From: Eutreptiella sp. 'Long Island Sound 2002'
Taxonomy: Eukaryota > Euglenozoa > Euglenophyceae > Eutreptiales > Eutreptiaceae
DNA length: 64,000 nt
Direction: 5' to 3'
NCBI GenBank assembly: GCA_964036045.1
Contig: OZ038390.1
Coordinates: forward strand, 873,001-937,000
Positions 4,911 to 50,100 of the stretch are shown in pieces; position 1 is the first letter of the stretch, and the number at the start of each line of letters is the position of its first letter. Position numbers and translations under genes: made by a program. Under the pieces are notes generated by a model, which worked only from the letters and a program-made list of their open reading frames with translations, made no database searches and was not told where the DNA came from.

Positions 4911-5002
4911 ACCCAACCTTTACTCTAACGCCCACCCCAACCCTCAGCCTGCTCCTAACCCTACACTTAACCCTACCCATGACTCTAACCCTAACCCTAA
5001 TC
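4911..5002. repeat. Degenerate telomere-like CCCTAA array
   Basis: About 90 bp of irregular CCCTAA-related units (CTAACCCTAACCCTAA near 4983-5000). A second short array (CCCTAGCCCTAACCCTAG) lies at 7172-7195. Both abut the ends of the 1.1 kb tandem duplication. This is interstitial telomere-type sequence, not a chromosome end, because unrelated genes and transposons flank it on both sides. Confidence 0.6.
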
Positions 5003-6138
5003 AAGACTCGATATTGGGCCCGAGCTGGTGGGGGAGGGAACATTAGCTATGACTGGTGAGGGACATCAAGAATGATTCACACATTGATGGCTCTTGACAA
5101 AGTGAAATCAGCTTGCAAGTGAACCCCATCACCACAAGGCCCACTTTCAAGGCTTTTTGGACTTCTGAGGGGCCAAAATGCCCCAAAATGGGCTCAAAAT
5201 GGGCTCATTTCACCCGTTTGTGCACCCCAAATGGTCTAGGATGAGATTTGGAAAAATGCGTTTTTGACCCATTTTTGACCCATTTTTGGTCCCAAAACAG
5301 CCCATTTTCAAGGCATTTTGGGATTTTGGGGGGCCAAAATGGGCCACCACAAGCTCAAAAGGGTCCAAAAACACTTGTTTTAGCGTCGCACATGGTCTAG
5401 GATCATTTTTGTAAAAAGTCATCTTTTTGCCCCTACTGGATCCTGTTGACCCATTTGGGCACCCACCTGTTTGGGCTTGAGCTTGCAGCTTGCCACAGCC
5501 TAGTGGGCCTAGGTATTGGGGTCTAGGCGTCCATTTGGGCAATTATGAGGGGTGGAAACCACAAAAAGTGGGGGGTTGCGGGTGGAGTAGGTGCCCTCGG
5601 AATCGCATTTTGAGCCATGTAGCCAAAGATATGGCCTATTCTTGGTTTGTGGCTGTCGGCATTTGGAGCTTCTGGGTGCCTTTTTGGGCCGTTTCCGGGA
5701 CATATGGTGGAGTTAGAGGGCCGCAAAGAGCTCGTTGACATGGGGAAGTCAAGCCGCACATAGAGTGTACCCACCGTTTCCCTTCGTTTGGCCGTTTTGA
5801 ATGTGTTCCAGGGCTTTTTTAGGCCCAAAAATGGCTGTTTTTGGCCCCAAACTGCAGTTTTTGAAACTGAGGTCCGCCACTTGCAAATCCCGTTCCCGGC
5901 CGCCACCGTTGAGTTTCTTGCTCAAACTTTGTGTGATTGTACTTCACACCCATAGGTATCATCCACGAAAATTTCACCCGAATCCAAAGCACCACGACGG
6001 AGTTCTGATTTTTCCCCATTTCGCGCGTGCTGCTTGCTTGCTTGCTGCTTGCTGCTGCTGCTAAACCTGGTAGGTCCACCCTAGACACTAAAAAGGGTTA
6101 TAACACCAAGACTGGTTCCACCAGCTCGGTGACCCTAA
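5001..6138. repeat. First copy of a 1.1 kb tandem duplication
   Basis: Sequence beginning TCAAGACTCGATATTGGGCC recurs at 6139. This copy is 1138 bp. Both copies contain the same small ORFs, rich in poly-pyrimidine and CAAAATGGG words, a CTTGCTTGCTGC microsatellite and a CCACCCTAGACACTAAAAAG end. Identity by eye is well above 95 percent. The matching ORFs show no domain and are probably non-coding. Confidence 0.85.
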
Positions 6139-7178
6139 TCAAGACTCGATATTGGGCCCGAGCTGGTGGGGGAGGGAACATCAGCTATGATTGGTGAGGG
6201 ACATCAAGAATGATTCACACATTGATGGCTCTTGACAAAGTGAAATCAGCTTGCAAGTGAACCCCATCACCACAAGGCCCACTTTCAAGGCTTTTTGGAC
6301 TTCTGAGGGGCCAAAATGCCCCAAAATGGGCTCAAAATGGGCTCATTTCACCCGTTTGTGCATCGGACCAAAATGGGCCACTACAAGCTCAAAAGGGTCC
6401 AAAAACACTTGTTTTAGCGTCGCACATGGTCTAGGATCATTTTTGTAAAAAGTCATCTTTTTGCCCCTACTGGATCCTGTTGACCCATTTGGGCACCCAC
6501 CTGTTTGGGCTTGAGCTTGCAGCTTGCCGCAGCCTAGTGGGCCTAGGTATTGGGGTCTAGGCGTCCATTTGGGCAATTATGAGGGGTGGAAACCACAAAA
6601 AGTGGGGGGTTGCGGGTGGAGTAGGTGCCCTCGGAATCGCATTTTGAGCCATGTAGCCAAAGATATGGCCTATTCTTGGTTTGTGGCTGTCGGCATTTGG
6701 AGCTTCTGGGTGCCTTTTTGGGCCGTTTCCGGGACATATGGTGGAGTTAGAGGGCCGCAAAGAGCTCGTTGACACGGGGAAGTCAAGCCGCACATAGAGT
6801 GTACCCACCGTTTCCCTTCGTTTGGCCGTTTTGAATGTGTTCCAGGGCTTTTTTAGGCCCAAAAATGGCTGTTTTTGGCCCCAAACTGCAGTTTTTGAAA
6901 CTGAGGTCCGCCACTTGCAAATCCCGTTCCCGGCCGCCACCGTTGAGTTTCTTGCTCAAACTTTGTGTGATTGTACTTCACACCCATAGGTATCATCCAC
7001 GAAAATTTCACCCAAATCCAAAGCACCACGGAGTTCTGATTTTTACCCATTTCGCGCGTGCTGCTGCTTGCTTGCTGCTTGCTGCTTACTGCTTGCTGCT
7101 GCTAAACCCGGTAGGTCCACCCTAGACACTAAAAAGGGTTATAAAACCAAGACTGGTTCCACCAGCTCGGTGACCCTA
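6139..7178. repeat. Second copy of the 1.1 kb tandem duplication
   Basis: Same order as the copy starting at 5001 but lacking roughly 100 bp (present at about 5232-5335 in copy 1, replaced near 6361 by a short joint). The remaining differences are scattered substitutions, which suggests a recent duplication. The copy ends at telomere-like CCCTAA repeats. Confidence 0.85.
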
Positions 7179-7577
7179 GCCCTAACCCTAGCCCTAGCTC
7201 TCACCCCAGGGGGAGGGCAAGGGGAGGTAATGGGAGCCTGTGCCCCCCCCCCACCACCCCAAATCGCCCCATCTGGAACCCCCCCCCCGACCCTCCCGAC
7301 CCCCCCCCTCTCCCTTTGGCCCATTTCTACGGCATTTCTACTGGGGGGGGGGGGGGGTCGCGTACAAAAGCGAGGAGACGGCCCACCCGTGGCATACCCT
7401 ATCTTTCTCTCTCCCTGCCTCCCTCCCTCCCTCCCTCTCTCTCTCTCTTCCACTTTTTCCCCTTCTTCTGCGATTGGAAAAATTGTTTTGTACACTGTTG
7501 AGCCCAATCTGGTGTACCGCTGGAAGCAACAGAAATATTCTTGTGGCTCTCTTGTGGTTTCAGATTCTCCCAAGGCC
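7179..7577. other. Low-complexity 5' flank of the phytochrome gene
   Basis: Contains telomere-like units, C runs (7243, 7280), a G run (7345-7357) and a CTCC/CT microsatellite (7410-7455), then about 120 bp of ordinary sequence. The phytochrome frame stays open back to 7068, but translation there is low complexity and overlaps the duplicated repeat, so I treat it as promoter/5' leader. No TATA box is convincing. Confidence 0.5.
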
Positions 7578-10500
7578 ATGGTACCAGCCCACGAGGATGC
7601 AGTTCGGTGGGCAGACTCTGTTTTGCTGCCCAGGCAGTACGAATCAATTTCGACTGCCAAAAGAGAAGCCTATCGACGGAATTCTTTGTCACTAGAAGAT
7701 CAAAAGCACGCTTGCGCTCAAGAAAATATCCACAAGCCAAGCGCTGTGCAAGGCCATGGCTATCTTTTGGTGATGGAAAGGGCCACGCTTTCGGTTACCC
7801 AAGTTAGTGCAAACGTCGTTGACCTGGGCTATGCAATCAACTCGCTCCTTGGCACGTCTTTGATTGATGTGATTGGAGCAACAGCCTTCGACGACATCCA
7901 GACGACAGTCGACATTCACGAGTCCAAGCCAACGAGCAGTTTCCCTTTGGAATTCGGTGTCGGAAGACACAGAAAAACGTTTGCAAGCTCCTTCCATGTG
8001 CGTGGCACAAGTGCGTTTCTTGAGTTGGAGCCTTACGTACCAGTCACTTCAAGATGTGTTGATGCTGGAAATGTGCAAGTCCGGTGCATGAGTCAGAAGC
8101 TGTTAACGGTCGAAGGCAGCGTCGAAGGTTGCCAGCTCTTGACACAAAGGGTTCAGAGCACAACAGGGTTTGACCGGGTATTGGTATACATGTTTCACCC
8201 TGATCAACATGGTGAAGTCCTTGCAGAGACTCTTCGACCTGATTCTGGGGTGGAGAGCCTCAAGGGGCTACACTTCCCGGCACAGGATGTTCCAGAGCAG
8301 GCCCGGGCTGGCTTCGTCCGCAACGTTCACTCACACATCCCCCATGTGAAGCACGATGAAGTTCCGCTTGTTCCGGTCGATGGTTCCCACTGCATGGAGC
8401 ATCCGGACATGACGCTGGTGAGCCTCCAATCCGCAGCCCCCGAGTGCACCCAATACTACCTCAACCTGGGTATTCAAGCATCCTTCGTGGTGTCTCTGGT
8501 GGTTGATGGCCACTTGTGGGGCTTGCTGATCTGCCATCATATGTCGCCAAAGTTCGTCCCATTCTATGAAAGGGTTGCAGCCGCAATGGTCTGTGAAGTC
8601 CTGTCCCTGTTCATCAGCGTACAGCAGCGGTTGGAACGTGCGCGGCAGCAGGAAAGCGCCGGGCGGGCACAGCGAAGAATGGTTCGCTGCTTGAAGGAAA
8701 CGCACGACCCGCAGGCAGCATTCGCTGGCGAAACTGGGAATGTTTCTGATCTATTACAATGCACAGGGGCCTGCTGTGTGATAGATGGTGTGGTGCATCG
8801 ATTTGGCGTCACCCCTACTGAAGAGGAGATTCTTGAGTTAGTGGGGTTTGCCTTGGAGCACTCTGGTGGGGTGCTGTGTTCCGCAGATCTCCCGGATGTC
8901 TACCCCAACGCAGAGAAGTTTGGCGAGCATGCAAGGGGTTGCTTGCTGCAAAGCACGTCCACCGCGACGAACGACCTCAAGGAAGGCAGCTTAGTTTGCA
9001 TCTGGTTCCGGGGATCCATTACCCAAAATGTATGTTGGGCAGGTGACCCCAGCAGCTTCACCCCCGGGGGCATGGTCCCCTGCTCATCGTTCAGGCCGTT
9101 CAGTCAAACAGAAACGCTATCTGCCGTGCCATGGACAGAGAGCGACGAGCATATAGTCAGCGACTTCGTGCGTGACATCAGCCTGCAACTGGCCGAAATC
9201 AAGTGCCAGCAGGCGGAGCACCGCCTGAGTCAAATGCGGATAAAGGATCAATTCATTGCCAACATCTCCCATGAGATTCGCACCCCCCTTTATGCCATCA
9301 ACGGCATGGCCGAGGAATGCCTAGAGGCGCCGCACCTTCCCAGTGACCTTCAGGAGCCTGTGGAGTTGATCCATGCCAGTGGCACGTCGCTGCTCAGTCT
9401 TCTGAACGACATCATTGATGTAAAGAAGTTAGAAGACGGGAAGCTGCAGTTGGTGCCCCAGGATGTCAACGTTGTGCAATTGGCGCGTTTCTGCCTGAAG
9501 ATGTTCAGCAAGCAATTGAAGGCCAAGGGTCTGCTTGGGCAGCTGATCTACACCCCCTCTCTGGAGCATACAACCCTCAGTATGGACAAGACGCGGCTGC
9601 AGCAGCTGTACGTCAACCTCATCTCCAATGCGCTCAAGTTTACAAACACAGGTTCCATTACTGTGCGGCTAACGCACAGCCAAAGCCCATCCGAGCTGAC
9701 AGTATCTGTTGAAGACACCGGCATTGGCATCCAGGACAGCGACCTCCCCAAGCTCTTCGACAAGTTCGAACAGGTTGACACCTCCGATCAGCGGGTGTTC
9801 CATGGGGCAGGCCTGGGGCTGTACATCGTGAAACAGATCCTGGACCTCATGGATGGCAAGCTGGGGGTCCAATCGGAGTGGCAGAAGGGCTGTCAGTTCT
9901 GGTTCAAGGTCTCTGCCCCCTGCTGCTGTGAAAACAAGACCGCTTGGGCATCCCAAGAGCCATGCGAGGAAACCATCATCAAGCCATTGGCATCCCAAGA
10001 CATGGAAGCATCCAGGACCTCAACAAGCACTGCCTTGGTGTCTCGATCAAGCACATGGCCAACGGCTGGCGGGGCGTCTACCTCGACATCTAGCTCGGAA
10101 CCCTCCTCGCCTGCTCAACGAAGTGCTGACCCTCCATCGCGGCTGGCTCTCAAGCCGCTCCCTCTCACGAAGGTCCCGAGTAGGACCGGGCCGAGTCCCA
10201 AATCTGCACTCAAGAGGATGTTCCGAGCGGTGTTCCCGGCGCGCAAATCTGATCCCTGTTCGACGCCCTCTTCGCCTTCCGAGACGCCCGTGCCCCGAGC
10301 TTGGACACAAGTCTCTCGCTCACCCCCTTCCAACATGGGCATGCGGAAGAAGGCCATGCAGAGGGCGGCACAGGAATCGCCGGGGGCGCCGAATCCCTTC
10401 CAAGTACGTTCAAGGGGAGGCATGCGCAGAAGAATCCTCGTGGCAGAAGACACCCCTGTGTTGCAGAAGGTCACCTTATCGAAGCTATCGCCCGTCGCAG

Positions 10501-10832
10501 ACTGCGTCATCGTCCCGGATGGCGAAGCCGTGCTGGAGAAGTTGGGCGAGTCCACGGCGTATGCATTGATCTTGATGGATCTGCAGATGCCTCGTCTGGA
10601 TGGTGTCGAGACCACGAAAGCCGTGCGAGCCGTTCCTAAGTATGACCACATCCCCATCGTTGGCTTCACTGCCAGTTCCATCCAGAGCGAGTTGGATGCA
10701 TGCAAAGCGGCAGGAATGATTGAGGTGCTGTCCAAAGGCCTCCCCAGGGCACAGTTGCAATCATTCGTCTCCAGGTACACACAGCCGGCACCGCAATCAG
10801 ATGCTGTGTCGGAGCCCTGTGCTGCCCATTAA
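7578..10832 (+). CDS. Phytochrome hybrid histidine kinase (PAS-GAF-PHY-HisKA-HATPase-REC), 1084 aa
   Basis: Red/far-red type bilin photoreceptor. Start chosen at the ATG at 7578 (G at -3 and +4); upstream codons are repeat-derived. PAS about 40-145, with Cys46 in CAQENIHKPSAVQGHG, the biliverdin-attachment position of bacterial and fungal phytochromes. GAF about 180-340: FPAQDVP with Asp237, GLLICHH with His320. PHY about 350-535 with a WAGDP...PCSSF tongue. HisKA about 555-620 with His565 in NISHEIRTP. HATPase about 665-790 with N, DTGIGI and GAGLGL boxes. A Ser/Pro-rich linker (790-950) leads to a receiver with phosphoacceptor Asp1001. Odd features: Cys290 replaces the usual pocket His, Glu289 sits at the plant/Cph1 cysteine position, Cys502 replaces the tongue Arg. 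No intron or break. Probably a soluble light-regulated phosphorelay protein. Confidence 0.93.
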   Translation: MVPAHEDAVRWADSVLLPRQYESISTAKREAYRRNSLSLEDQKHACAQENIHKPSAVQGHGYLLVMERATLSVTQVSANVVDLGYAINSLLGTSLIDVIGATAFDDIQTTVDIHESKPTSSFPLEFGVGRHRKTFASSFHVRGTSAFLELEPYVPVTSRCVDAGNVQVRCMSQKLLTVEGSVEGCQLLTQRVQSTTGFDRVLVYMFHPDQHGEVLAETLRPDSGVESLKGLHFPAQDVPEQARAGFVRNVHSHIPHVKHDEVPLVPVDGSHCMEHPDMTLVSLQSAAPECTQYYLNLGIQASFVVSLVVDGHLWGLLICHHMSPKFVPFYERVAAAMVCEVLSLFISVQQRLERARQQESAGRAQRRMVRCLKETHDPQAAFAGETGNVSDLLQCTGACCVIDGVVHRFGVTPTEEEILELVGFALEHSGGVLCSADLPDVYPNAEKFGEHARGCLLQSTSTATNDLKEGSLVCIWFRGSITQNVCWAGDPSSFTPGGMVPCSSFRPFSQTETLSAVPWTESDEHIVSDFVRDISLQLAEIKCQQAEHRLSQMRIKDQFIANISHEIRTPLYAINGMAEECLEAPHLPSDLQEPVELIHASGTSLLSLLNDIIDVKKLEDGKLQLVPQDVNVVQLARFCLKMFSKQLKAKGLLGQLIYTPSLEHTTLSMDKTRLQQLYVNLISNALKFTNTGSITVRLTHSQSPSELTVSVEDTGIGIQDSDLPKLFDKFEQVDTSDQRVFHGAGLGLYIVKQILDLMDGKLGVQSEWQKGCQFWFKVSAPCCCENKTAWASQEPCEETIIKPLASQDMEASRTSTSTALVSRSSTWPTAGGASTSTSSSEPSSPAQRSADPPSRLALKPLPLTKVPSRTGPSPKSALKRMFRAVFPARKSDPCSTPSSPSETPVPRAWTQVSRSPPSNMGMRKKAMQRAAQESPGAPNPFQVRSRGGMRRRILVAEDTPVLQKVTLSKLSPVADCVIVPDGEAVLEKLGESTAYALILMDLQMPRLDGVETTKAVRAVPKYDHIPIVGFTASSIQSELDACKAAGMIEVLSKGLPRAQLQSFVSRYTQPAPQSDAVSEPCAAH

Positions 10833-44100: not shown

Positions 44101-47100
44101 TGGGGCTGAAATTCAAGCGCTGGCACACCCAAACGTCGAAACATTTGTAGGCAGCACATTCATGTCTGTTTATTACGTTGTTCCTGAGGCACAGGAACTG
44201 AGCCAAACAGTGAGTTTTGGTTGGCACCAAAGCTGATGCGCATTACACATCAAACAAATTCTGCAGCAGGATTTCTGACACTGAAGGTTCAAGAATTGAA
44301 AGTGGAGGAGGGGGGTTAAAAGGGGTTTTGCGCTGCACAGTGGGGTTGTCGGCCCTATGGGTGACAGTATTCCCAACCCCTTTGTGCCCAGGTGCCCCAT
44401 TTGAAATCCAAACCCCCCCATTTACTCTCCACATCCAGCAGCACCCCCGCGCTTCAAGGTGCCTTGCTGAAGGCAATAGAATTTTCCGTTTGTGAGGTAC
44501 CAAAGTGAAGTCCAATGGCAGTTCTCCCAACTTGTTATGTGAAATTCACAATTACCATGTGCCCCAAAGTAGTGCTGAACCACTTATACAAGCACAGTAG
44601 GAAATAGCCACATTACTTGAAAACTGCCCTCATGTGAGAAATGTAAAAGGATTTTTTTTTTTGCAAAACAGCATCTAATTGGAAAACAGTGTCAAGTTTG
44701 AAGACCTGGAAGCACACGTTGGCCTATTCTAAATCTGCCAAATTTTGGATATGGTACCACCATTGCCATTTCTTTCTCCCTTGTGAGGTCGATGGATTCA
44801 GGTATGGGTTTTTGATTGGCTGTGGATGTAAAGGGATGGTCTGGATATCCAGAAGGTACATAATAATTAACGCCCCATTTAGTGCCAATACTGACCATAG
44901 TGGTGTGGGAGTCATCTTCTCCAATTTGGAGTACCCTGAGCTCTGCCGCTTGCTGTTCAACCAAGGTTTTCATTGAGTCTGGGCTCTCATCGGCTTGGCA
45001 CGCTTTAGTGACAAATATTTTTTGGCTGCTTTTCAAAGACCCCAACTTGACAATTCATTGTTGCCCGAGGAAAGGTGGCAAGCAGTGACCATCAACAGTC
45101 ATTTGCTTTTACCATGGAGTCAAGAACACAAATGATTCCATGGACAACCCCCCAAAATCTCCCCTGATCCCAACCACCAAACGCCACGACACATGTGGGT
45201 CCCAAACAAATGAGAATGCATCGGCTAGCTAGCTAGCTGGCAGCATATTGAGCAAACACCAAATGATCCTCCAATTGTGGTTTCCTTGTGTCTGCAGCCT
45301 TTTCATTTTCATGTGCCACATTGTGTACCATCGAGCCGGAAAAGAGAGAAACTGATGTCCCTCCAACACAGCACCATGCTCATCCCAAAAACCCGGTTTC
45401 ACCCTTCAGTCAAAGTTCATTCATAATGCTATGGTGTTGAATGTGGAGGCACGAGGGGGGAGGCCCTGGGGGATTGAAATTTTGCTAAACCCCACCATAG
45501 TCTTAGGGGCCGATGGGCACCACTGAGGCCCAACTACTGCTGCATGGCTCCACATGGGATAGTAGGTGCTTGTAGTTTCACCAAATGATAACCCAAGCCT
45601 GGTGCAAGCAAGCACAACCCAACAATTGTAAATTTTCTACCAACCTATGGTGACCCTAAAACGTGAAAAATGTAAGTTGTGTGCAAAAAAATCGTCTAGT
45701 GTAATTTTTTTTGCAGTAAATGCATGTAATTTTTTTTGCGGTAAGTCGTGTGAATTATTTAAAAAAATTGAATTTTTTTTTGCGGTAAGGGCGTGTAATT
45801 TTTTTTTCGGTAAGTCATGTAAATTGTTAAAAAAATTGAAAAAATTGAAGGAAATGCAACCTTTGCAATACGTGCGCAATATGTACGGCTGCCGGTTCCG
45901 TACGGCACACCATAGCAACCTTAACGATGGGACGCCGAGTCCACAAAGCACATAGTACTACTCTGCGTGGCCACCAATTAGTTGGGACTCGGCCAATATA
46001 ACATAGTTCCACATGGTGTCATTGGCACTAGACACAAAATGAGGCCCAAGAAAAGAGTCGTGACAGGGCCATGGCCAACATCCAGTGTGCCAGCACTGGG
46101 AACAAAATCAGGCTCAAGAAAAAGAGTCCTGACAGGGCCATGGCCAACATCCAGTGTGCCAGCACTGGAAACAAAATCGGGCTCAAGACAAAGAGTCCCG
46201 ACAAGGCCATGGCCAACGCTAGTGCCACCATTATAGGCCACCAAGGCATTGGTATGGGGCCAATATAATAGCAATCTTATACGCCCCACCATTGGTACAC
46301 CAAACGGGCGGAGGAAAATACAGCCCACAAAACATGCACCCGCTACAAGTAGTTGCAGAATGCACGCTTGTAGATCAAGTCCATTTTTGTGTCGCTGGAC
46401 TTGGGCTTTGCACTAGGATTGGGGTTAAGCTGACAAGCGGCGCGCAACTCTGCTACTAGCGGCTTGGGCAGGTCATCGACGAAAAGCTGGTCACGCTCCA
46501 GCTGGCCAGATGCATCTACTGGGTAGCCATCCGGCACCTTGCGCCACTCTCCACGGATGAGGACCTTGGGACGGATGTCTTCCTCCATGGGAGTGGCCAT
46601 GGAAGGTTGCAGCCTCGCCTCCGAGCTTTCCACGCTCTGCTCAAGGAAGGCCTCCTTGCCTTCAAGTGGGGTGGGGGTGGCCTCAACACTCTCCTCGATA
46701 GCCGAAAGTGCACCTTCAACTTGGGTGCGGGGGGGGGGGGACTCAAGAGGGCCAGGAAGCTCGGTCACGCCCTCCACATCATCACCGGGCGCTTGAACGG
46801 CCCGCACAGCACGATTAGCATTAACAATGCTGAGCACATAGTCCACAAACCCGGCACCCATTGGGACGAGGGGCACATCGGAAAAAGTACCCCGGTGCTC
46901 CACCACCAGCTTCGCCATGTTCAAGCTTTGAAAACCACAAGACGAACCGTCCGTTTGGAATCCCAAGGCGCGGTGCTTGGTGGTTGGCGAAAGCTTCCTC
47001 ATGGCCATCAAGTGCGTGGATTGCGAGTCCCTAACCCCAACTCAAGGGGCCACGCAACAAAGCGTGGATTGAGAGTCCCTAACCCCAACTCAAGGGGCCA

Positions 47101-50100
47101 CGCAACAAAGCGTGGATTGAGAGTCCCTAGCCCCAACTCAAGGGGCCACGCAACAAAGCGTGCATTGAGAGACCCTAACCCCAACTCAAGGGGCCACGCA
47201 ACAAAGTGTGGATTGCGAGTCCCTAACCCCAACTCAAGGGGCCACGCAACAAAGCATGGATTGAGAGTCCCTAACCCCAACTCAAGGGGCCACGCAACAA
47301 AGTGTGGATTGCGAGTCCCTAACCCCAACTCAAGGGGCCACGCAACAAAGCGTGGATTGAGAGTCCCTAACCCCAACTCAAGGGGCCACGCAACAAAGTG
47401 TGGATTGCGAGTCCCTAACCCCAACTCAAGGGGCCACGCAACAAAGCGTGGATTGAGAGTCCCTAACCCAACTCAAGGGGCCACGCAACAAAGCGTGCAT
47501 TGAGAGTCCCTAACCCCAACTCAAGGGGCCACGCTACAAAGTGTGGATTGCGAGTCCCTAACCCCAACGCAAGGGGCCACGCAACAAAGCGTGGATTGAG
47601 AGTCCCAAACCCCCACCACGCGTTCCACGCCCCAACGAGGAGGTCCCGGAGGCGCAGGACGCCAAGGCACAGCACTTCGAGGGGGGCAAGGACACAAGTG
47701 GTGCTGGCCCACCCTCGCCGATGGTGGGGGGCGGGGAACACCTGGGCAACCCGGCCGTACCACCACTGCAGCACGGCGAGGCCGTGGTGCCGCCGCCGGT
47801 GCCAGGGGAGTGGGAGCGGCGGGCCGTGGTGCCCGCGTCCTCGGCCTCGGCCTCGGCCTTTCTGCCGGCCGCGTTGGCCACGTGGTCCCCATCGAAGAGG
47901 GGAGAGGAACGACCATGATTGAGCTGCCGAGGCTATAAAACTACATAAGGAGGTTGTGCCCCAGCCCCTTGCTTAGGTGGCCCATTTGGGGGTGGCCCCC
48001 AAAACCCCACCGGCAAAATTCTGCCAGTGAAAAGTGAGTGATGGAAACCCATGTTTATGGGCAGTGCGTTTTTGGGACGCGACGGAACGCCCCCTCTGGA
48101 TGACTTTTTGGCACTTTGGGACCTAATTTTTGGTACTCAAAAACTAGGGGAAATAGAGGGTTTTGGGTGTTTTTGATGGGCAAAATGAATGGATCAGAGG
48201 ATTTGACAGGGGTTGCAGCAAGCGATCTATTGGTGTGGTCTGTGTCATATGGTTTGCAGCAGGTAGAAAATCGGGAGGTCACGCAACCGTGGCTCCGGGG
48301 TCAACTTTCAAGGCCTACCTAGGTGCGCCGTGTCGTGCCTCAAAATTCTGCCGGCTGTTTTTCTACAAACCCGTGCTTAGTGACGTAACCGCCACGGGTA
48401 AAAGTGGCCACAATTCAGGAGGCGCATTTGGTATCAAGCACGGAAGGCACGGCATGCTGCACAACGCAATTGTAGCAGGAAATATTGTGTGCAGGTTCTT
48501 CATGGTGCATGCTGTAGTGCGGACCATTGCACGCAGTTCCAGGGACCGCAGCACAGGCTACCACTGGCAGAATTCTGCCAGTAGACATGGCGCATACACA
48601 GGTGGCTGGCACCAACACACCACGGTGTCCAAAAAAGCTGCAGTGGGACACACACAACGCGGCAGGACGAGGTGTGCGACCCAGTTGGTACGCACAGATG
48701 GAAGGTGACGCTATAGCAATGCAAAAGGGAGGCTAGTGCGCCGCACACGCAGGCACAAAGCAACCCCATATACTATACGACACCACGTATGTACAATACA
48801 CGGCTCACCGCTATAAACCGGCGCCGACCCTGTCACACAATTCGTACTAATTCACATCACATTAGGCAATCAATCAAATGCGGGCGAACCACTATGTTGG
48901 GCCGCCATAGGCAACAAGCGGCCTGATATACCAGGTAATAGCAAGCCCTTCCCAAACATTAATTGTGCATGGTGCAATGGCGTATGGTGCTGCAGACCGG
49001 GGTGACACGAATGTAAGCCAGTGCATTGTGGCGCATGCAATACGTGGGAGTTAAGGTACATGTGTTTTTGCGCGCATCACTTCCAGCGTGTGTCCCATTG
49101 GCATGTGTGCATCACACTTGGTCTCGTCAAGCGATGCAACTGCACGATTGTGATTCGATTTGCAACATTGCATTGCTGTGTTTCTGCCTTGTTTATCTCG
49201 TAATCGGTGGTGCGAACAACCACACGGTCGCAAGCCAAGGTTTCTGAACCATGCATGTCGGTGTGTTGCCGGATATGATCAAGTGGTGCACATGCAAGGG
49301 TACGATGTTTCAGGACACTGCCGTTGCGACACTATTGCGTTGCTCGCTGGCAGAACTCTGCCAGAACCATTTAGTAGGAATTGTCCATCAGATCACATTG
49401 CATGCACAACACAGTAGTGGGGTGTAGGTTGCATACGCTTCCATACTGCACACACGCCGACATATCTATCATTGTATGATTGTTGGCAGAATTATGCCAA
49501 CACGGGGGGGGGGGGGGGGGGTTGCTCCTAATTGGTGGTTGTACCACGAGGTAACATCATTTCTCTCTGTAGGTACCTTCTGGAAGCCATGCCCTGCGGC
49601 ACATGCCATGTCACCGTCACGCCGCTGGCAGAATTCAACGTGCGCGAACGCGCATACTTATGGCTACTGCCTCCATGTGAGAGCACAGGATGATACCCAC
49701 CAGTACTTATTTGCTGCTGCGTACCGTGTGACACCATGAACCACAACCTGGAACCCTGGTACCATGGCCTTGTAATGCATGACACAGAGCAAGCACATCA
49801 ACGCACTCCGTACATCACCAACTTCCGGTTTGTTCCGTTGTAGTACTATGTAGCCATGTCCACATTTGCCTGTCCCTGCATACTGACCCTGCCAAAGGCG
49901 ACGTCACTGGCAGGAATTCTACCAGTGCCTGCCCCCACCACCTGCAGGACCCCATTGTCTGCGCCACCACAAATCCCGCTGGATCAAACATTGTGCCGGA
50001 AGAGGGGTTTTGCGCGCATGACAAAAAGGGGGCAAAAAGGGCTTTTTCAGGCACCCCCAAATGGGCCGCCTAAGCCTGGGGGAGACCCCCCCCCAACAGC

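Follow-up and report, generated by a model that had tools for sequence, protein, structure and literature searches.

What histidine 260 of phytochromes contributes to chromophore protonation and to the first signalling step is a long-standing question, and a gene of the alga Eutreptiella sp. 'Long Island Sound 2002' raises it in natural form: what becomes of the photoreceptor when this near-invariant residue is a cysteine? The gene lies in a window of 64,000 bp, the whole stretch of DNA analysed here, which spans bases 873001-937000 of the 64-Mb contig C13 in a genome of 2,280,300,865 bases and 2205 contigs. This embedding in a 64-Mb contig ruled out bacterial contamination as the source of the gene. 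The open reading frame (ORF) at 7578-10832 is a genuine, intact gene for a bacteriophytochrome-type hybrid histidine kinase, and comparably long open frames are found in its near copies elsewhere in the genome.

A cysteine at the position of histidine 260

The window protein has the domain order PAS-GAF-PHY-HisKA-HATPase-receiver, and all six Pfam domains pass their cut-offs. PAS, GAF and PHY follow one another in sequence as in the phytochrome superfamily, and the H, N, G1 and G2 boxes and the receiver aspartate of hybrid histidine kinases are present. Structure comparison of a bilin-free AlphaFold2 (AF2) model, built on an alignment of 88 sequences, gave a fold match spanning 490 residues.

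The pocket residues were assigned using an alignment of 121 proteins, consisting of the window protein and its 120 best protein-search matches, with the residue numbers of Cph1 and of Deinococcus radiodurans BphP (DrBphP). The column of Cys290 contains His in 113 proteins, Cys in 7 and Asn in 1, and that of Glu289 contains Cys in 34, which identifies the two columns as the Cys259-His260 pair of Cph1. The stretch ..SPGHLTYL.. of His-bearing paralogues from the same genome pairs without gaps with ..APGCTQYY.. of the window protein. Of the canonical pocket, Asp207 of the DIP motif, Tyr263 and His290 are present as Asp237 (Asp in 121/121), Tyr293 (Tyr in 120) and His320 (His in 115). Given that His260 is Cys290, a canonical proton-relay pocket is not claimed for this protein. 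The columns of Arg222, Arg254 and Arg472, which are Arg in 112, 118 and 119 proteins, hold Ser252, Gln284 and Cys502 in the window protein, the last of these at the arginine of the canonical tongue motif PRxSF. Cys46 is in register with the bilin-binding cysteine that bacteriophytochromes carry N-terminal to the PAS domain, and the GAF Cys259 of one dual-Cys type is replaced by Glu289. The first-pass annotation, made from the window alone, had proposed this attachment position, these residue correspondences and a rewritten pocket; the register was upheld at each of them, and a remodelled pocket is supported.

A family with several residues at one site

A genome-wide search for the PHY domain returned at least 33 matches at no fewer than 32 places, L119 having been matched twice. 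Beside the window, 31 places were tabulated, with L117 and L118 probably being exons of a single gene; these two, L109 and L115 do not cover residue 290, leaving 28 copies. Sixteen have Cys (the window, L095-L106, L108, L110 and L119), eight have His (L089-L093, L107, L111 and L112), and the remainder have Ser (L094), Asn (L113) or Phe (L114 and L116). Nine of the Cys copies (the window, L100-L104, L106, L110 and L119; the window group) are near-identical and were therefore counted as one lineage. Cys290 is found in 12/12 members of the subgroup formed by this group and L096-L098, and also in L099 and L108. Of the seven Cys rows in the 121-protein alignment, five belong to the window protein and to its kin P0002, P0003, P0004 and P0007; some of these four may stem from another assembly of the same genes. 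A sequencing error or misalignment at Cys290 was ruled out by the 16 genome copies, by these four proteins and by the gapless match with the His paralogues.

The main tree was built from 38 rows, the 28 loci and 10 bacterial proteins, after removal of columns 290 and 502. All eukaryotic copies group together (100/100), and inside this clade the 20 non-His copies form one of their own (100/100). The His/non-His label switches twice over the tree, with one change in the alga and the other in a bacterial pair. This tree carries a program warning, with long branches meeting at L107 and the bacterial pair; a 26-row tree without that pair and without L102-L104, L106, L110-L112 and L119 repeated the split (100/100). 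Since Cys members occur in both halves of the non-His clade, Cys is the simplest candidate for its ancestral state, with Ser, Asn and Phe probably derived later. Judged from these sequences, a near-invariant phytochrome residue has been replaced here in nature, and the replacement is genuine and well retained.

The other pocket columns change in different ways across the family. At Arg222, 28/28 eukaryotic rows have Ser, Thr or Gly, and because these rows include the His-bearing paralogues, the loss of this arginine is not tied to that of the histidine. Gln at Arg254 is found in 10/28 rows, exclusively in the nine-member window group and L113. Among the columns at which the His copies keep the bacterial letter, those altered along with the loss of His include Leu264, now Tyr, Pro59, now Gly, and partly Met267, now Leu. 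At the Ser257 position the window protein and its nearer kin have Ala. Asp207 is kept in 26/28 copies (exceptions L111 and L112) and Tyr263 in 25/28 (Phe in L107, His in L111 and L112), and all 20 non-His copies retain both. The Cys46 position is aligned in 20 of the 28 eukaryotic rows and is Cys in all of these; L106, L110, L114 and L119 are too short to reach it, and the alignment of L097, L111, L112 and L116 starts only past it, so that Cys46 may be lost there. In L097 and the similar predicted protein P0003 the N terminus diverges right before NIHKPSAVQ and the aligned Cys46 context is lost, P0003 having a Cys nearby.

The ratio of nonsynonymous to synonymous substitution rates (dN/dS) was computed over the photosensory part for 19 chosen pairs and was mostly 0.2-0.5. 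The window gave 0.254 and 0.261 with L096 and L098, 0.21-0.38 with L100, L101, L102 and L104, and 0.27 with L099 at a high dS (1.7); L099 against L108 gave 0.287. The H, N, G1 and G2 boxes are kept in nine Cys copies (the window, L096-L098 and L100-L104, in L103 past an internal TAG) and in five His copies (L089-L092 and L107), with the receiver Asp seen in all of these except L092. Given that the largest non-His subgroup has intact kinase motifs, the sequence evidence indicates that the His swap is not simply decay.

These data bear on the possibility that light sensing was lost, and that the branch consists of bilin-free or photoinactive sensors whose fold is reused for another signal. The missing pocket contacts (His260, Arg222, Ser257 and partly Arg254) would agree with this, as would the loss of the kinase H-box or the lack of a kinase in some members, the unaligned Cys46 of L097 and L116, and the lack of both aligned Cys46 and Asp207 in the His-bearing L111 and L112. 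However, the window protein and most copies retain Cys46, Asp207 and Tyr263, the latter two being kept in all 20 non-His copies, which makes a bilin-free function less likely, and photosensory dN/dS is well below 1 in most pairs. We therefore regard a loss of light sensing as unlikely.

Cys502 had been proposed in the first-pass annotation as a third cysteine in or near the pocket, and the residue is indeed present at Arg472. Among the 28 copies that cover it (L111, L112, L114 and L117 do not), 25 have Arg, and Cys (the window), Trp (L107) and Ala (L116) occur once each; P0002, 97% identical to the window protein, has Arg. The codon is TGC in the window versus CGC in nine other copies compared, a CpG-type transition, and Cys502 looks like a single recent substitution in the window copy or a one-base error. 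A family-wide third pocket cysteine was ruled out, given that Cys502 is private to the window copy, which reduces the three cysteines to Cys46 and Cys290.

In known phytochromes Arg472 bridges to Asp207, and Cys502, if real, would remove this bridge in the window copy. It may be that this copy alone is a recent, impaired duplicate bound to become a pseudogene, R502C having broken the bridge while its sisters work, which is compatible with the other readings. The private change of CGC to TGC (1/28) and the stops and truncations of other copies point in this direction, whereas the wholly intact ORF of the window and its dN/dS of 0.21-0.38 against L100, L101, L102 and L104 do not, and this base of codon 502 may have been misassembled or misread. 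We consider such an impairment possible but somewhat doubtful.

Three further observations were made on the family. L094, L099 and L108 combine a degenerate H-box with otherwise long open frames and are possible pseudokinase partners. In L111 (L111:1477-5661) and L112, a 1395-residue ORF joins PAS-GAF-PHY to leucine-rich repeats (Pfam run on L111 only), the Asp207 motif being lost and His260 kept. A repeat element that includes a long tandem array (period of about 41 bp, from alignment offsets) holds phytochrome residues ~113-525 in L106, L110 and L119; at the DNA level this piece shares 97% identity with the window gene, and it lies on three chromosomes with nearly equal end points, as if a mobile element had captured the gene.

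Proposed protonation change or second bond

The explanation that we hold to be on balance probable is that biliverdin is carried on Cys46 and that the replacement of His by Cys290 alters protonation and spectrum in a kinase with light-gated output. The gene product would be a bacteriophytochrome-type photoreceptor kinase of the alga, with biliverdin from the alga's heme oxygenase attached at Cys46. Cys would replace the histidine that normally governs how the chromophore is protonated and contacts the pyrrole water, together with the neighbouring changes of Leu264 to Tyr and Ser257 to Ala and on top of the family-wide loss of Arg222. Because the pyrrole-water histidine is absent, a changed chromophore pKa and dark-state spectrum would be expected, with the first relay from D ring to helix rewired. 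Photoisomerisation should still be possible via Asp237, Tyr293 and His320, and the light signal would lead to autophosphorylation of His565 and transfer to Asp1001. For the window protein itself we infer expression, bilin binding, the spectral effect and light-gated kinase activity.

The genome could supply the chromophore. Six heme-oxygenase matches were found (best E value 1.4e-60), as well as four bilin-reductase matches at two places, three of which seem to be exons of a single gene on contig C4, while the fourth is on the small contig C1593 and could be foreign. The presence of these genes suggests that biliverdin, and perhaps also a reduced bilin, can be made by the alga.

Published work on this residue is in line with an effect on protonation. 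One study calls His260 strictly conserved and describes how, with Tyr263, it relays the D-ring change to Ser257 (PMC7164956), and another attributes the heterogeneity of the red-absorbing (Pr) state of Cph1 to the protonation states of His260 and His290 (PMC10296107). From these roles and the behavior of H260Q, Cys at 260 should change pKa and spectrum and need not block assembly.

Several observations weigh against this explanation. A further source reports that some changes of His260 lose the chromophore, H260Q being nearly normal (PMC12420706). Higher dN/dS values were obtained for L100/L101 (0.415), L091/L092 (0.437) and L096/L098 (0.491), and the youngest pairs gave 1.26 (L100/L102) and 0.95 (L102/L104), from just 4-5 changes over the gene. 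The kinase H-box is lost in L094, L099 and L108, and no kinase was found in the PHY-bearing frame of L093, L095, L105, L113 and L114, where later exons may be overlooked; Pfam likewise gives none in L095 and L113. Stops or truncations interrupt some sister copies, and with these losses part of the family may be decaying. The window copy itself may be impaired through the loss of Arg472.

A different role for the cysteine follows from its location. His260 sits at the pyrrole water by rings A-C, so a thiol at this position would be close to the chromophore. In a two-cysteine photocycle, Cys46 would hold ring A and the thiol or thiolate of Cys290 would add reversibly to C10 or a nearby atom, giving a violet or blue state. 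That the non-His clade most simply started out with Cys, and that Cys is retained throughout the window subgroup and in L099 and L108, is consistent with such a cycle, as is the description of C10 adducts as a common tuning mechanism in cyanobacteriochromes (PMC12420706). On the other hand, the sisters with Ser (L094), Asn (L113) and Phe (L114 and L116) could not form the bond, and known second cysteines are located elsewhere. A second link through Cys290, which the first-pass annotation had suggested as an alternative to one through Cys502, is weakened by these sisters, and also in that the change at Arg222 does not track that of His. Overall, a two-cysteine photocycle in the window protein is improbable. 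The wider proposal of a new, lineage-wide photocycle of this kind, with the pyrrole-water His turned into a reversible ligand and later switched off by Ser, Asn or Phe, appears more doubtful still. Considering that the sisters carry these three residues, it may be the absence of His that counts at this site, and not a second bond.

Known photoreceptors and genomic setting

Two-Cys cyanobacteriochromes and tandem-Cys phytochromes resemble the window protein in having a second cysteine near the bilin, which in them belongs to other motifs (DXCF, insert-Cys). The C10 adduct is known from two-Cys photoreceptors and is no more than a possibility for the window protein; if true, a covalent link between Cys290 and C10 would represent a new kind of two-Cys phytochrome. 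Compared with Cph1, the window protein has Glu in place of the GAF Cys259, has Cys46 and has lost His260. Compared with DrBphP and the PAS-GAF-PHY bacteriophytochrome kinases, it has Cys at His260, Ser at Arg222 and Gln at Arg254, and its gene is eukaryotic, encodes a hybrid with a receiver and belongs to a large paralogue family.

The bacterial P0042, P0060 and L002 share with it the Cys at the His260 site and the PAS Cys but differ in keeping Arg222 and Arg254, and P0042 and P0060 also in their HWE-type kinase domains. A first tree, built from 47 of 220 proteins, places P0042 and P0060 among bacterial proteins, which makes the origin of their Cys a separate one. Bacterial Cys at this site looks rare; a genome scan with patterns favouring Cys found it in 1 of the 80 loci listed (L002).

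Diatom and brown-algal phytochromes are eukaryotic bacteriophytochrome-like proteins, and they, like that of Chattonella, are likened to the window protein by type. The Chattonella phytochrome is described as such a protein (PMC6685483). None of the 120 matches listed, nor of the matches listed from a second search, bears a diatom, brown-algal or Chattonella label, many rows being unlabelled. Among the matches listed, P0139 is the only row labelled as from a eukaryote collection; judged by its gene name, it is probably from Cyanophora.

LHCII-like polyprotein ORFs of up to 6122 residues were seen among the 150 scored of 2607 light-harvesting complex (LHC) candidates, and the best solved-structure match of their units is the multi-repeat LHCI chain of PDB 9vfj. 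LHC polyproteins are known from Euglena, and we take those seen here to be a euglenophyte trait. A dinoflagellate origin was set aside in view of these polyproteins and of the lack of a match to a spliced-leader piece. Transcripts annotated as Phytochrome are listed for Euglena gracilis in one source (PMC13422297), and a limited literature search found no characterisation of a euglenophyte phytochrome or of a natural Cys at His260. One genome here supplies His, Cys, Ser, Asn and Phe at this site on the same scaffold, and this matched set therefore makes a direct test of the role of the residue possible. Biliverdin photoreceptors with unusual spectra may also come from the family.

Table 1. Positions of the gene, its domains and its key codons within the window
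Feature	Position	Strand	Remarks and basis
Possible cis- or trans-splice acceptor, TTTCAG	7558..7563	+	just 5' of the start, 3' of a pyrimidine tract; putative function
Phytochrome hybrid histidine kinase gene	7578..10832	+	1084 codons and stop; ORF without internal intron
PAS_2 domain	7713..8033	+	residues 46-152; Pfam PF08446
Cys46 codon, bacteriophytochrome-type bilin attachment position	7713..7715	+	alignment register
GAF domain	8130..8594	+	residues 185-339; Pfam PF01590
Asp237 codon (Asp207 of Cph1/DrBphP)	8286..8288	+	alignment
Ser252 codon (Arg222 position)	8331..8333	+	alignment
Gln284 codon (Arg254 position)	8427..8429	+	alignment
Glu289 codon (Cys259 position)	8442..8444	+	alignment
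Cys290 codon TGC (His260 position), central feature	8445..8447	+	alignments, codon comparison, tree
PHY domain	8664..9158	+	residues 363-527; Pfam PF00360; recovered also by the genome-wide PHY search
Cys502 codon TGC (Arg472 of PRxSF)	9081..9083	+	alignment, codon comparison
HisKA domain	9243..9440	+	phospho-acceptor His565 codon 9270-9272; Pfam, motif check
HATPase_c domain	9585..9914	+	N, G1 and G2 boxes intact; Pfam, motif check
Receiver domain (Response_reg)	10434..10763	+	phospho-acceptor Asp1001 codon 10578-10580; Pfam, motif check

In an alignment of nine copies, TTTCAG is kept in all nine, and the upstream indels there are not all multiples of three. No match was found for a spliced-leader piece, and no Rfam families or tRNA genes were found within the window. 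Upstream of the gene, a reverse transcriptase ORF (RVT_1) lies at 2123-2905; its 96 protein matches share one source collection and are mostly from long contigs. Just before the gene, 4994-7178 holds direct repeats 300, 231 and 113 bases long, which are 88-99% identical and lie ~1.03-1.14 kb apart. Farther downstream, a 48-bp tandem array at 47014-47613 has 12.5 copies with a 94% match, and a + strand ORF runs through part of it.

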